Assembly: GCA_947459655.1 (NCBI GenBank)
Contig: CANHEE010000017.1
Coordinates: 1 to 36,695, forward strand
Source of the DNA: Lewinellaceae bacterium
GTDB taxonomy: Bacteria; Bacteroidota; Bacteroidia; Chitinophagales; Saprospiraceae
Direction of reading: 5' to 3'
Length of the DNA stretch: 36,695 nt
Shown: positions 6,360 through 31,983 of the stretch, piece by piece
Layout of the letters: every line of letters begins with the position of its first letter
Position numbering within the stretch: the first letter of the stretch is position 1
Program-made: the position numbers and the translations under genes
The notes under the pieces: model-generated
What the model saw: only the letters and a program-made list of their open reading frames with translations
What the model was told of the DNA's origin: nothing
The model's database searches: none

Positions 6360-7718
6360 ATGCAGCAAATCATTTTTATTTTAGTGGCATTGGTAGCGCT
6401 TGGACTGGCTTTCAGACAATTTGCCAAACTTAGGAGAAACATCCTCTTAGGTAAAGATGAGCAAATCGGGGGAAACCATTCTGAACGATGGAAAAATGTG
6501 ATGCTTATCGCATTCGGGCAACAGAAAATGTTTACGAGATGGACTCCTGCTATTTTTCACTTTTTCATTTACGCTGCATTTTTACTCACCCAGGTCGAAC
6601 TGATAGAAATTTTCGTTGATGGAACTTTCGGTACTCACCGTTTTTTCTCTCCTTACCTCGGTGGCTTCTACACTTTCATTATCAATTTTATCGAAACGCT
6701 GTCGGTATTGGCATTTGTTGCCACTTTTGTTTTCCTCTACCGCAGGAATATCATGAAGATTGCAAGATTTCAAAAGCCGGAAATGAATGGTTGGCCTTCT
6801 CTGGATGCAAATCTGATATTGGTTTTTGAGATAGTCCTTCTTATTGGAATTTTCAGCATGAACGGAGCAGATGTCCTCCTCCAACAGGCCGGAAACGAGC
6901 ATTACATCGACACCGGACACCTGTTCTTTAGCTCCATAATAGGCCAAAATTTATTTGGGAACTTTTCTACAGATTCACTGATATTGCTGGAAAGGTTTGG
7001 CTGGTGGCTGCACATCATTATGGTCTTTGTTTTCATGAACTACCTTCCGATTTCCAAGCACCTGCACGTATTTCTCGCATTTCCGAATGTGTATTACGGA
7101 AAACTCCATCCGAGAGGCGAAATGGAAAATATGCCGGAGATTATGAATGAGGTAAAATCCATGATGGGATTTACAGAGCCAACTGTCGGAGAACAAACAG
7201 AAATTCCTGAGTTTGGATCTAACGACGTCTTTTCCCTCAGCTGGAAGAATGTCATGGATGCCTATTCATGCACCGAGTGCGGAAGGTGCACCTCGGTTTG
7301 CCCGGCCAATCTCACAGGTAAAAAACTATCGCCGAGAAAAGTCATGATGGATGTGCGTGATCGTGCAACAGAAGTCGGCAGAAAATTAGACAGCGGTGAC
7401 TTGCAATTTGTCAGAAAGGACATAAAAGAAAGTGCAGTAAAACCTGACAGAGAAAATTTTGATGACGGCAAATCGCTTTTCGATTACATTACTCCTGAAG
7501 AGTTGCACGCATGTACTACCTGTAATGCCTGCGTCGAGGCATGTCCGGTAACCATCAATCCACTCGATATCATCCTAAAGATGCGTAGGTATGAAATACT
7601 GACCCTGTCCCAGGGACCTACAGACTGGATTCCCATGTTTACCAGTCTTGAAAACAGCGGTTGCGTATGGCAGATGACCACAGAACGCGACCAGTGGGTT
7701 AGCGAACTCAACAACTGA
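6360..7718 (+). CDS. Membrane-bound (Fe-S)-binding protein, HdrC/GlpC-like
   Basis: The 452-residue protein has an N-terminal membrane half with about five hydrophobic segments (roughly residues 3-18, 62-82, 93-125, 150-175, 215-235) resembling the cytochrome b/NarI-like part of Fe-S oxidoreductases. The C-terminal half carries two ferredoxin-like 4Fe-4S motifs: C304-x2-C307-x2-C310-x3-C314P and C385-x2-C388-x2-C391-x3-C395P. Such proteins pass electrons between the quinone pool and soluble partners. In other Bacteroidota this gene is typically followed by a CCG-domain subunit; here the next gene, 32 bp away, is an MFS transporter and no CCG protein is present in the window. The role in this organism is therefore open. 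Confidence 0.85.
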   Translation: MQQIIFILVALVALGLAFRQFAKLRRNILLGKDEQIGGNHSERWKNVMLIAFGQQKMFTRWTPAIFHFFIYAAFLLTQVELIEIFVDGTFGTHRFFSPYLGGFYTFIINFIETLSVLAFVATFVFLYRRNIMKIARFQKPEMNGWPSLDANLILVFEIVLLIGIFSMNGADVLLQQAGNEHYIDTGHLFFSSIIGQNLFGNFSTDSLILLERFGWWLHIIMVFVFMNYLPISKHLHVFLAFPNVYYGKLHPRGEMENMPEIMNEVKSMMGFTEPTVGEQTEIPEFGSNDVFSLSWKNVMDAYSCTECGRCTSVCPANLTGKKLSPRKVMMDVRDRATEVGRKLDSGDLQFVRKDIKESAVKPDRENFDDGKSLFDYITPEELHACTTCNACVEACPVTINPLDIILKMRRYEILTLSQGPTDWIPMFTSLENSGCVWQMTTERDQWVSELNN

Positions 7719-7750: not shown

Positions 7751-9271
7751 ATGTCTGATAAACAGGCCCATTTTCACAAAAAAAACCTCGGATTTTGGGA
7801 AATCTGGAACATGAGTTTCGGTTTCCTTGGAATTCAGTTTGGCTGGGGATTGCAAATGGCCAATATGAGCGCCATATACGAAAACCTTGGGGCTAAAGCA
7901 GATGAAATACCGGGATTGTGGCTTGCCGCTCCTTTGACAGGTCTAATTGTACAACCTATTATTGGTTACATGAGCGATAGGACGTGGACACCAATGGGTC
8001 GACGAAAACCTTACTTCCTCACTGGAGCCATTCTCGCTTCAGCCATGCTTTTACTAATGCCGAACAGCTCAACTCTATGGATGGCTGCCGGCCTGCTGTG
8101 GATTCTGGACGCCTCTATCAACATCAGCATGGAACCTTTCAGGGCTTTCGTAGCCGACATGCTACCCGAAGAACAACAGGCGCAGGGATACACAATGCAA
8201 AGTATGTTTATCGGACTTGGAGCCATTGTCGCATCAGCATTGCCTTGGATTTTTACTAATGTAGTCGGCATGTCAACTGAGACAGATTCGGGACAGATTC
8301 CTGCAAATGTGAGATGGTCATTTTATCTGGGTGCATTTGCATTTCTTGCGGCAGTATTGTACACCATCACTAAAACAAAGGAATACCCGCCTGCAGACAT
8401 GGAGGAATTTGAAGCAGAAAAAATCGCTGACCGTTCGGCGGGTCTTATCCCAAGATTCAATAAAGCCGTCATCGAAATTTTTGATGCCATTTTGAATATG
8501 CCAAAAGTGATGAGGCAACTCGCGCTTGTTCAATTTCTTACCTGGCCAGGTTTGTTTCTCATGTGGTTTTACTTTGGTGTTGGAATCACGCGTCAGGTGT
8601 TCAATTATGTTGACTACGGCAAAGAGGAAACGGAGTACTTTGCATACCTGACTGCCTTAGAAAATAACAAAACCTATGATATTAGCAGGGAACTAATAAT
8701 CAAATATGGCTCAGCGATAGAATTCAACGCAAAAATGGAGCAGAAGATCAGTGTTCAATTTGGTTCTGCCAATGCTTTTTACGAGGAAATGAAAGCAAAT
8801 ACCAAAAGGAAAAGTGACGGAAACGACTGGGGTGGATTGTGCTTTGCATTTTACTCACTTGTTACCTTTATATTCTCCTTTTTATTTCTACCGAAAATGG
8901 TGCACCAATGGGGTAAAAAGCAAACACATTTTATTTGTCTGTTAGCCGGTGCCGCTGGCTTGCTTTCTGTGGGCCTATTTGGAAATAAGTTCCTTCTACT
9001 GATTTCAATGACAGGCGTTGGAATTGCTTGGTCAAGTATACTTTCGATGCCGTATGCTATGCTCGTTCCGCATTTAAGTGACCGAAAAACTGGTCTGTAT
9101 GTCGGCATATTTAATTTTTTCATTGTCCTTCCGGAGATTCTGGCTACACTGGGTTTTGGCTGGATAATGAGCAATCTACTTAACAACAACCGTATTTCGG
9201 GGGTGATTTGTGGAGGGTTCTTACTAGTGGCTGCAGCTATAGCAACCCTGCGGGTTCACTCGGACGACTAA
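7751..9271 (+). CDS. MFS transporter, SLC45/sugar-cation symporter-like
   Basis: This 506-residue inner-membrane protein has about 12 predicted transmembrane segments. The loop 2-3 signature is GYMSDRTWTPMGRRKPY (residues 76-92), typical of the SLC45/GPH sugar:cation symporter branch of the major facilitator superfamily. A distinctive hydrophilic insert (roughly residues 285-355, rich in E, K and N) separates the two halves, longer than a normal central loop. Substrate cannot be read from sequence; disaccharides are the commonest cargo in related proteins. It lies 32 bp after the Fe-S gene and 59 bp before paaE on the same strand, possibly one transcript. No glycoside hydrolase neighbour supports a sugar assignment. 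Confidence 0.85.
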   Translation: MSDKQAHFHKKNLGFWEIWNMSFGFLGIQFGWGLQMANMSAIYENLGAKADEIPGLWLAAPLTGLIVQPIIGYMSDRTWTPMGRRKPYFLTGAILASAMLLLMPNSSTLWMAAGLLWILDASINISMEPFRAFVADMLPEEQQAQGYTMQSMFIGLGAIVASALPWIFTNVVGMSTETDSGQIPANVRWSFYLGAFAFLAAVLYTITKTKEYPPADMEEFEAEKIADRSAGLIPRFNKAVIEIFDAILNMPKVMRQLALVQFLTWPGLFLMWFYFGVGITRQVFNYVDYGKEETEYFAYLTALENNKTYDISRELIIKYGSAIEFNAKMEQKISVQFGSANAFYEEMKANTKRKSDGNDWGGLCFAFYSLVTFIFSFLFLPKMVHQWGKKQTHFICLLAGAAGLLSVGLFGNKFLLLISMTGVGIAWSSILSMPYAMLVPHLSDRKTGLYVGIFNFFIVLPEILATLGFGWIMSNLLNNNRISGVICGGFLLVAAAIATLRVHSDD

Positions 9272-9330: not shown

Positions 9331-10407
9331 ATGTCAACTGTAAAATTTTATTCACTAAGAGTATCTGATATCAGACGGGAGACTTCCGACTGCGTTTCCT
9401 TGTCTTTTGAAGTTCCTGAAGAATTGAAGAACGATTTTTCATTCAAACAGGGACAATATCTCACACTACGAAGAGAAATCGGTGGGCAAGATGTCCGCCG
9501 ATCTTATTCCATTTGCAGCAGTCCACTGGATAATGAGCTTCGTGTAGCAATAAAAAAGGTACCACATGGCATTTTTTCAACTTATGCAAATGAGCATTTG
9601 AAGACAGGTGATGTGCTGCAAGTGATGACACCTGCCGGCAGATTCTTTACGGAAATGGACGAGAAACACGACAAAAATTATGTCGCGTTCGCTTCAGGTT
9701 CCGGGATTACACCTGTGATGTCCATCATGAAAACAGTTTTGAAGAGCGAACCAAAATCTACATTTACACTTTTTTACGGCAACAAAAATGCGGCGTCAGT
9801 TATCTTTAGAGAAGGCATAGAAGGGTTGAAAAACAAATACCTCGAACGTCTAAGTGTTTATTATATTCTTTCTAGAGAAACAAGTGATTCTGAGATCCTG
9901 AATGGAAGAATAGACGGTAAAAAATGTGATGCCTTTTGTGAGCATTTTATCAATGTAGACAATATCAGTGATTTTTTCCTTTGCGGCCCTGAAGAGATGA
10001 TTTTTGCAGTGGAAGAAAACCTTGAAAATAGAGGAGTTGACAAGAAAAAAATTCATTTTGAGCTGTTCAGCAGCCATGCATCTCAAAAAGCTGTATTAAA
10101 AAATACGGATCTCGTTGAAAGTGAATCACTAAGTGAAGTCAACATCAGGCTCGATGGAAAAGTCATGACGTTTGGTCTTGCTAAAAATGGAATCAATATT
10201 CTTGATGCAGCCCTCCAAATGGGAGCCGATCTTCCCTACGCATGCAAGGGAGGCGTTTGCTGTACTTGTAAAGCAAAAATTACCGAGGGCGAGGTCAAAA
10301 TGGACCTCAATTATGGGTTGGAGGAAGATGAAATTCAAAACAATTATATTTTAACCTGTCAGGCACACCCAATTTCAGAGAGAATTGTGGTTGACTTTGA
10401 CGTTTAA
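9331..10407 (+). CDS. paaE: PaaE-type ferredoxin reductase (phenylacetyl-CoA epoxidase reductase-like)
   Basis: The 358-residue flavoprotein has the three-part order of PaaE: an FAD domain with RRSYSIC at residues 56-62, an NAD(P)H domain with GSGITPVMSI at about 127-136 and FLCGPEEM near 218, and a C-terminal plant-type 2Fe-2S ferredoxin domain with C305-x4-C310-x2-C313 and distal C343. PaaE passes NADPH electrons to the di-iron PaaA-PaaC oxygenase that epoxidises phenylacetyl-CoA. The next gene, 11 bp downstream, encodes PaaB, which supports the assignment. PaaA, PaaC and PaaD are absent from this window, so another electron acceptor cannot be excluded. An extra Cys311 within the CGGVCC-like motif replaces the common Gly. 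Confidence 0.88.
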   Translation: MSTVKFYSLRVSDIRRETSDCVSLSFEVPEELKNDFSFKQGQYLTLRREIGGQDVRRSYSICSSPLDNELRVAIKKVPHGIFSTYANEHLKTGDVLQVMTPAGRFFTEMDEKHDKNYVAFASGSGITPVMSIMKTVLKSEPKSTFTLFYGNKNAASVIFREGIEGLKNKYLERLSVYYILSRETSDSEILNGRIDGKKCDAFCEHFINVDNISDFFLCGPEEMIFAVEENLENRGVDKKKIHFELFSSHASQKAVLKNTDLVESESLSEVNIRLDGKVMTFGLAKNGINILDAALQMGADLPYACKGGVCCTCKAKITEGEVKMDLNYGLEEDEIQNNYILTCQAHPISERIVVDFDV

Positions 10408-10418
10408 ATCTAGATAAA

Positions 10419-10703
10419 ATGAACAAAGACTGGCCACTATGGGAAGTTTTTATCCGTAGTAAAAATGGACTATCCCACAAGCATGCTGGAAGTTTACACG
10501 CGGTTGATGCAGCTATGGCAATTGAAAACGCAAGAGATGTTTACACGCGCAGAGCAGAGGGCGTTAGTATCTGGGTAATCGAGTCCAAAAACATTACCGC
10601 GTCTGATCCTGCAGACACAGACATGCTGTTTGAGCCGTCAGTTAGTAAAGTTTACAGGCATCCGACATTTTATGATGTGCCTGATTCAATTACACACATG
10701 TAA
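10419..10703 (+). CDS. paaB: 1,2-phenylacetyl-CoA epoxidase subunit PaaB
   Basis: This 94-residue protein matches PaaB throughout: the N-terminal WPLWEVFIRSKNGLSHKHAG, the central DAAMAIENARDVYTRR, and EGVSIWVI in the second half. PaaB is a small non-catalytic subunit of the multicomponent phenylacetyl-CoA epoxidase in aerobic phenylacetate breakdown. It is thought to bridge or stabilise the PaaA-PaaC di-iron complex. Length is normal. It follows paaE by 11 bp and is surely co-transcribed with it. The usual neighbours paaA, paaC and paaD do not follow; instead there is a 152-bp gap and then a secreted peptidase gene. Confidence 0.9.
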   Translation: MNKDWPLWEVFIRSKNGLSHKHAGSLHAVDAAMAIENARDVYTRRAEGVSIWVIESKNITASDPADTDMLFEPSVSKVYRHPTFYDVPDSITHM

Positions 10704-31674: not shown

Positions 31675-31983
31675 ATGGACAATCAACAGAACCAATTTAA
31701 TGTTGAACTTTCGGAGGAAATGGCGGACGGAACATATGCCAACCTTGCCGTAATTTCCCACTCCCCTACTGAATTTGTGCTGGATTACATCAGGGTGATG
31801 CCCAATATGCCAAAAGCCAAAGTAGTATCTCGAATCATTCTCACTCCAGAACATGCGAAAAGACTTCTGCAGGCTCTTGCAGACAACGTGAGAAGATTTG
31901 AACAACAGTTTGGTGTGATCAGTGAAAACCAAGGCGGTGGGTTTCCACCGATGAATTTTAATACCCCAACTGCTCAGGCATAA
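31675..31983 (+). CDS. DUF3467 family protein
   Basis: The 102-residue cytoplasmic protein matches DUF3467 across its length: FNVELSEEMADGTYANLAVISHSPTEFVLDY at 8-38, then RVMPNMPKAKVVSRIILTPEHAKRLLQALADNVRRFEQQFG. Small proteins of this family are nearly universal in Bacteroidota, often close to RNA polymerase genes, but their function is unknown. The glycine- and proline-rich tail (GGGFPPMNF) is typical. It stands alone here with its own putative promoter and a 12-bp inverted repeat just downstream. Confidence 0.85.
   Translation: MDNQQNQFNVELSEEMADGTYANLAVISHSPTEFVLDYIRVMPNMPKAKVVSRIILTPEHAKRLLQALADNVRRFEQQFGVISENQGGGFPPMNFNTPTAQA

Follow-up and report, generated by a model that had tools for sequence, protein, structure and literature searches.

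The paaE-paaB pair and its surroundings

We examined a 36,695-nucleotide stretch of DNA from a Lewinellaceae bacterium (hereafter the window; contig C17 of the assembly), in which the genes for two subunits of the phenylacetyl-CoA epoxidase, PaaE and PaaB, stand next to each other without paaA, paaC or paaD, and which raises the question of which oxygenase this pair serves. A sequence-only reading of the window had labelled the pair as orphan, and had proposed either that a catabolic operon was split or that the two subunits serve a different di-iron oxygenase in an unusual electron-transfer system.

The paaE gene (positions 9331-10407, forward strand) encodes the NAD(P)H reductase subunit of 358 aa, which covered the whole TIGR02160 profile in the profile search (470.9 bits, cut-off 420.8) and contained the FAD_binding_6, NAD_binding_1 and Fer2 Pfam domains (FAD-binding, NAD-binding and 2Fe-2S, respectively). 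The bridging subunit of 94 aa is encoded by paaB (10419-10703, forward strand); it also covered its whole profile (TIGR02157, 136.6 bits, cut-off 85.45), scored 140 bits against PF06243 and aligned over almost its whole length with the PaaB sequences of known structure, 3egr and 4iit. The two genes are thus as clearly recognisable as first described, 11 bp apart. The spacer between them (10408-10418) is the site of paaA in relatives with the E-A-B order, and no remnant of paaA was found in it. Whole-genome searches recovered a single PaaE at E≤1e-90 and a single PaaB at E≤0.001, while tblastn of the window with the PaaA, PaaC and PaaD proteins of the same genome (E≤1) confirmed that these three genes are missing from it.

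Upstream of paaE, a gene on the forward strand (6360-7718) encodes an Fe-S protein with a two-cluster 4Fe-4S domain that weakly resembles HdrC-type subunits. HdrC-type proteins are often adjoined by an HdrB-like partner; here the next gene encodes an MFS-type transporter (7751-9271), so no HdrB-like partner is adjacent downstream. The Fe-S protein had been put forward as a partner of PaaE-PaaB, and we found no tie between them, the transporter gene lying in between. Downstream of paaB we detected a YbgC/FadM-type thioesterase gene and the gene for a subtilase of 1362 aa that carries PKD and Por-secretion-tail domains, which agrees with the T9SS peptidase first described there.

The remaining subunits are encoded at three other loci

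The genome assembly comprises 2,986,537 bases (2.99 Mb) in 175 contigs, with 99.83% completeness and 1.33% contamination. The search for paaA, paaC and paaD that the sequence-only reading had called for recovered one gene each: paaA on contig C10 (C10:31782-32606; TIGR02156, 545 bits, cut-off 280), paaC on C74 (C74:13234-14004; TIGR02158, 284 bits, cut-off 133.35) and paaD on C39 (C39:15848-16288; TIGR02159, 194 bits, cut-off 108.15). The PaaD protein was the sole match in the genome and combined the Zn_ribbon_PaaD and FeS_assembly_P domains, while the PF05138 search of the genome gave two proteins only, namely the one PaaA and the one PaaC. All five epoxidase subunits are therefore present, each above its curated cut-off, and their genes occupy four loci (E-B, A, C and D). 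The orphan label does not hold, since the missing genes sit elsewhere in the same genome.

Among the further paa genes that had been named, we looked for paaZ, paaG and paaK, with mixed outcome. A paaZ gene was found on C2, with Aldedh and MaoC domains (TIGR02278, 867.5 bits, cut-off 563); it was the only one of seven TIGR02278 matches in the genome above the cut-off. A paaG-like gene was found on C46 (61% identity, 310 bits), together with two weaker matches in the genome, when we used as query an enoyl-CoA hydratase-family protein encoded next to paaD in a relative; the best family of that query was PaaG (TIGR02280), at 294 bits and below the cut-off of 345. Finally, a genome-wide search with the PaaK profile TIGR02155 (E≤0.001) gave no match.

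The stretches around paaA (19.9 kb), paaC (10.8 kb), paaD (15.8 kb) and paaZ (5.0 kb) contained no second gene of the paaA-E set, and neither the TetR nor the PaaG-like protein of relatives had a match in them. An assembly in 175 contigs, with paaC about 0.8 kb from a contig end, could in principle have broken a normal operon and misjoined its pieces between contigs. Against such an artefact, paaE is followed by paaB on one contig, both frames being open and paaA absent between them, and paaA and paaD lie among unrelated genes in the interior of contigs of 44.9 kb and 22.3 kb, respectively, so that several independent misjoins would be needed. A chimeric join remains a slight possibility in an assembly so fragmented; as the explanation of the scatter, we consider the artefact exceedingly unlikely.

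The repeat content of the five loci was also compared as a possible cause of the scatter. Filtered blastn at E≤0.01 gave nothing common between loci and three within-locus palindromic matches, and this candidate was rejected.

Conservation of the five subunits

The reading frames of all five subunits were open. Our PaaA aligned with E. coli PaaA (3pvr) over residues 4-308, and the SEIVG, DEAGHG and EESFHQ segments, which we take to hold the di-iron ligands, were identical in both. We then counted the near-invariant positions (conserved in at least 97% of the other loci, excluding proteins shorter than 85% of our own) that are broken in this genome: 1 out of 74 in PaaE, 3 out of 171 in PaaA, 3 out of 50 in PaaB, 0 out of 46 in PaaC and 1 out of 45 in PaaD. 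The other loci had a median of 0 broken positions (1 for PaaA) and maxima of 24, 8, 5, 3 and 2 for PaaE, PaaA, PaaB, PaaC and PaaD, respectively. PaaB had three breaks against none in the median locus and the longest root-to-tip distance among 36 sequences, in a tree that was weakly supported.

The mean identity of our five proteins to the other loci was somewhat low (0.54-0.73, compared to medians of 0.62-0.79 among the others), possibly because the named loci are mostly from another family. Tree placement had low support for PaaE, PaaB and PaaC (0.16-0.34), while PaaA grouped with the Saprospiraceae-labelled locus L058 (support 0.82) and PaaD with loci labelled as Saprospiraceae and Flavobacteriales (support 0.98). 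L058 was also the best full-length named match of our PaaA (81%), and a Saprospiraceae-labelled locus was the best full-length named PaaA match for 17 out of 24 same-family genomes; a looser comparison kept two truncated PaaA sequences, and a fragment was then often the best match, also for our genome. Acquisition of single paa genes by horizontal transfer is conceivable.

The distance of paaE-paaB from paaA and paaC, in a genome without a PaaK match, could be taken to mean that the pair was co-opted by another di-iron oxygenase and has ceased to work with PaaA and PaaC. However, the search for the PaaA/PaaC family yielded just two proteins, a clear PaaA and a clear PaaC, a single PaaB and a single PaaE passed the thresholds, near-invariant residues were mostly retained in all five subunits, and no di-iron oxygenase was recognised among the scanned window proteins (genes from about 5.8 to 16.3 kb). 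Co-option is thus highly improbable, and nothing that we found points to a new electron-transfer system. Since PaaE and PaaB are single at these thresholds and accompanied by only one PaaA and one PaaC, they most likely work together as a canonical PaaABCE. We consider it highly probable that the window pair is the reductase and bridging pair of a complete, canonical phenylacetyl-CoA 1,2-epoxidase, PaaABCDE, whose genes probably formed one ancestral operon and now lie at four loci.

Gene order in relatives

We scanned named genomes for PaaE and obtained 71 loci. Of these, 32 contained the five genes together in the order E-A-B-C-D, and paaA adjoined paaE in 40. In the other 31 loci paaE had none of the other four genes with it in the fetched stretch, which extended 3 kb or more to either side in 18 cases; the E-B order without A was found in none of the 71. 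Like-for-like subunits of the Bacteroidota paaE-A-B-C-D operons shared about 39-84% protein identity with ours (tblastn, cross-matches between A and C set aside).

We also classified gene order in a panel of 80 genomes, ours included, of which 38 gave a total of 39 places with a paaB score above the cut-off. Genes were counted as near when they started within 6 kb of each other, and the classes omit both paaE-family places of 372.6 bits or less (none of them sharing a contig with an over-cut-off paaB) and genomes in which no paaB passed the cut-off, G005 and G011 among them. The 39 places comprised 19 ABC, 13 EABC, 4 BC, 1 AB, 1 EAB and 1 EB, the sole EB place being our window. Relatives thus keep A-B-C together in 32 of the 39 paaB places, whereas A, C and D are apart in our genome. 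Contig breaks blur some of these classes: in two ABC cases (G034 and G069) paaA is cut by the contig end, in one BC case (G022) paaA sits at the edge of a contig, and another (G015) has only one PaaA/PaaC match, which leaves G040 and G077 as BC cases.

Separated paa genes were also observed in other genomes. G040 has paaA, paaB-C and paaE on three contigs. In G012 and G049, paaC and paaD form a pair at a distance from paaB. G341 and G370 carry the same genus label (about 9 and 7 contigs, respectively); in both, a paaA-like and a paaC-like match were on different contigs among the matches listed, A and C being told apart by frame length and profile start. Operon splitting therefore recurs in this group, in more than one form, and the E-B/A/C/D split of our genome was seen in none of the relatives examined. 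The proposal of a split operon is supported, with the partners at three other loci and many relatives keeping E-A-B-C-D or A-B-C together. It had also been suggested that intact paaACD elsewhere, with the same split in relatives, would point to an ordinary rearranged pathway: the frames of A, C and D are indeed intact, but each gene stands apart and the splits differ among the relatives examined.

We compared the open reading frames of 12 stretches from five genomes (G011, G012, G040, G047 and G049), the stretches being hand-chosen for odd placement, with those of the five stretches of our genome (E≤1e-8). Two stronger non-paa matches were found. In G040 a transporter 64% identical to the product of 7751-9271 lies at about 6.3 kb from paaA, and in G047 a 62.5% match to window positions 31675-31980 lies beside paaE; four further non-paa matches were 25-29% identical. 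None of the five genomes shows the split of ours, and shared synteny of the split pieces was rejected, the two stronger matches being taken as coincidence.

Some other arrangements were observed in the relatives. In G047 a 1251-aa frame lies between paaA and paaB (contig C80; L126:6977-10729), that is, a gene inside the operon; it has a weak match (25%) to a protein of our genome that is subtilase-like by look. Other families of the order, e.g. G060, G068 and G050, contain PaaB-like proteins of a second class with weaker scores (about 65-84 bits, frames of about 120-160 aa), often beside lower-scoring PaaA/PaaC-family genes, and possibly representing a diverged epoxidase. In G005 two tandem PaaB matches occupy one open frame of 179 aa (C14:100898-101416), which suggests a duplicated or fused PaaB. 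Finally, many relatives have a second PaaE-like reductase (about 300-373 bits), and our genome has none at the same threshold.

PaaK, the regulator and upstream regions

The profile search for PaaK was checked on 14 control genomes, with a match in 10 and a score above the cut-off in one. In the 80-genome panel, 14 genomes had a PaaK match of at least 470 bits, all of them below the curated cut-off of 646.3, and the next best match scored 181.5 bits. Among the 34 same-family genomes with an over-cut-off paaB, 11 had such a strong PaaK and 23 did not, ours included, while PaaZ was present in 34 out of 34 as counted from the listing. Given that no PaaK was matched, we assign to our genome the epoxidase, and not the full phenylacetate pathway.

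A TetR-like gene of about 200 aa was present in the fetched stretch of 55 of the 71 paaE loci and lay no further than about 170 bp upstream of paaE in 54 of these; the member that we scanned had TetR_N and TetR C-terminal domains. Our genome, in contrast, had only a weak best match to the TetR protein of relatives (23% identity, 35 bits). Without a PaaK match and with such a weak TetR match, the usual entry step and the local regulation are not accounted for.

A scattered pathway that lacks its ligase and regulator, with a broken operon and somewhat diverged proteins, might be decaying and heading for loss. Yet the five frames are open with their near-invariant residues mostly kept, and PaaZ is found throughout the family members with paaB, most of which lack a strong PaaK. 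Absence of PaaK is so common (23 of 34) that it does not point to decay by itself, and we regard decay as very unlikely. The canonical, dispersed epoxidase remains our preferred reading.

The upstream regions were searched for shared sequences. At the named loci we counted the 8-mers that precede the TetR gene and paaE, the sequence ahead of paaE often overlapping the TetR gene itself, and no operator is claimed. We take TANNTTTG to be the Bacteroidota -7-like motif. It occurred twice in the 250 bases upstream of paaA and once upstream of paaD, with no occurrence upstream of paaE, paaC or paaZ, and in such AT-rich DNA these occurrences are weak evidence.

A probable canonical epoxidase with dispersed genes

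The E. coli-type PaaABC(D)E epoxidase (3pvr, 4ii4, 4iit, 3egr) has the same five subunits that were recognised here at the family level, and E. coli PaaA and the solved PaaB match our proteins nearly end to end; it differs in that our genes lie at four loci instead of one operon, in a genome with no PaaK match. By analogy with the known family, electrons taken from NAD(P)H would pass via the FAD and 2Fe-2S centres of PaaE to the di-iron PaaA, in an oxygenase presumably formed by contacts of PaaA with PaaC and PaaB, and the substrate would be phenylacetyl-CoA. PaaD probably aids in the assembly of Fe-S cofactors, and the ring would be opened by the PaaG-like isomerase and the PaaZ hydrolase/dehydrogenase. 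An outline of the pathway is available from PMC9007349. The ancestral operon was probably paaE-A-B-C-D; paaA would then have left its place between paaE and paaB, and paaC and paaD theirs behind them.

In an older survey of 102 genomes, paaA, paaB, paaC and paaD were each in an operon in 25 out of 25 cases according to Table 1 of PMC2653477, and the same source places paaE in the cluster in 19 out of 23. Set against that table, our genome is a counter-example to paaA, B, C and D always sharing one operon. A second survey, of 6,536 genomes, was centred on paaK with 20 genes on each side (PMC13186573), and the word beginnings "bacteroid" and "chitinophag" are absent from its main text; surveys anchored on PaaK in this way would miss genomes of this kind. 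In the open-access literature we found no description of fully scattered paaABCD genes, and nothing on a phenylacetyl-CoA epoxidase in Saprospiraceae or on paa genes in Chitinophagaceae.

What is mildly unusual is the scatter itself and how often PaaK is lacking; otherwise, this is ordinary biochemistry with an unusual gene placement. As a tentative and rather doubtful possibility, the epoxidase pathway may often run without PaaK in this family, on phenylacetyl-CoA that the cell itself makes directly (candidate sources being the oxidative decarboxylation of phenylpyruvate and the beta-oxidation of phenyl-alkanoates, among others), with the epoxidase acting as an unregulated clean-up enzyme. 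If so, there would be less need for a regulated operon and the genes would be free to scatter, as they have done fully in this genome.
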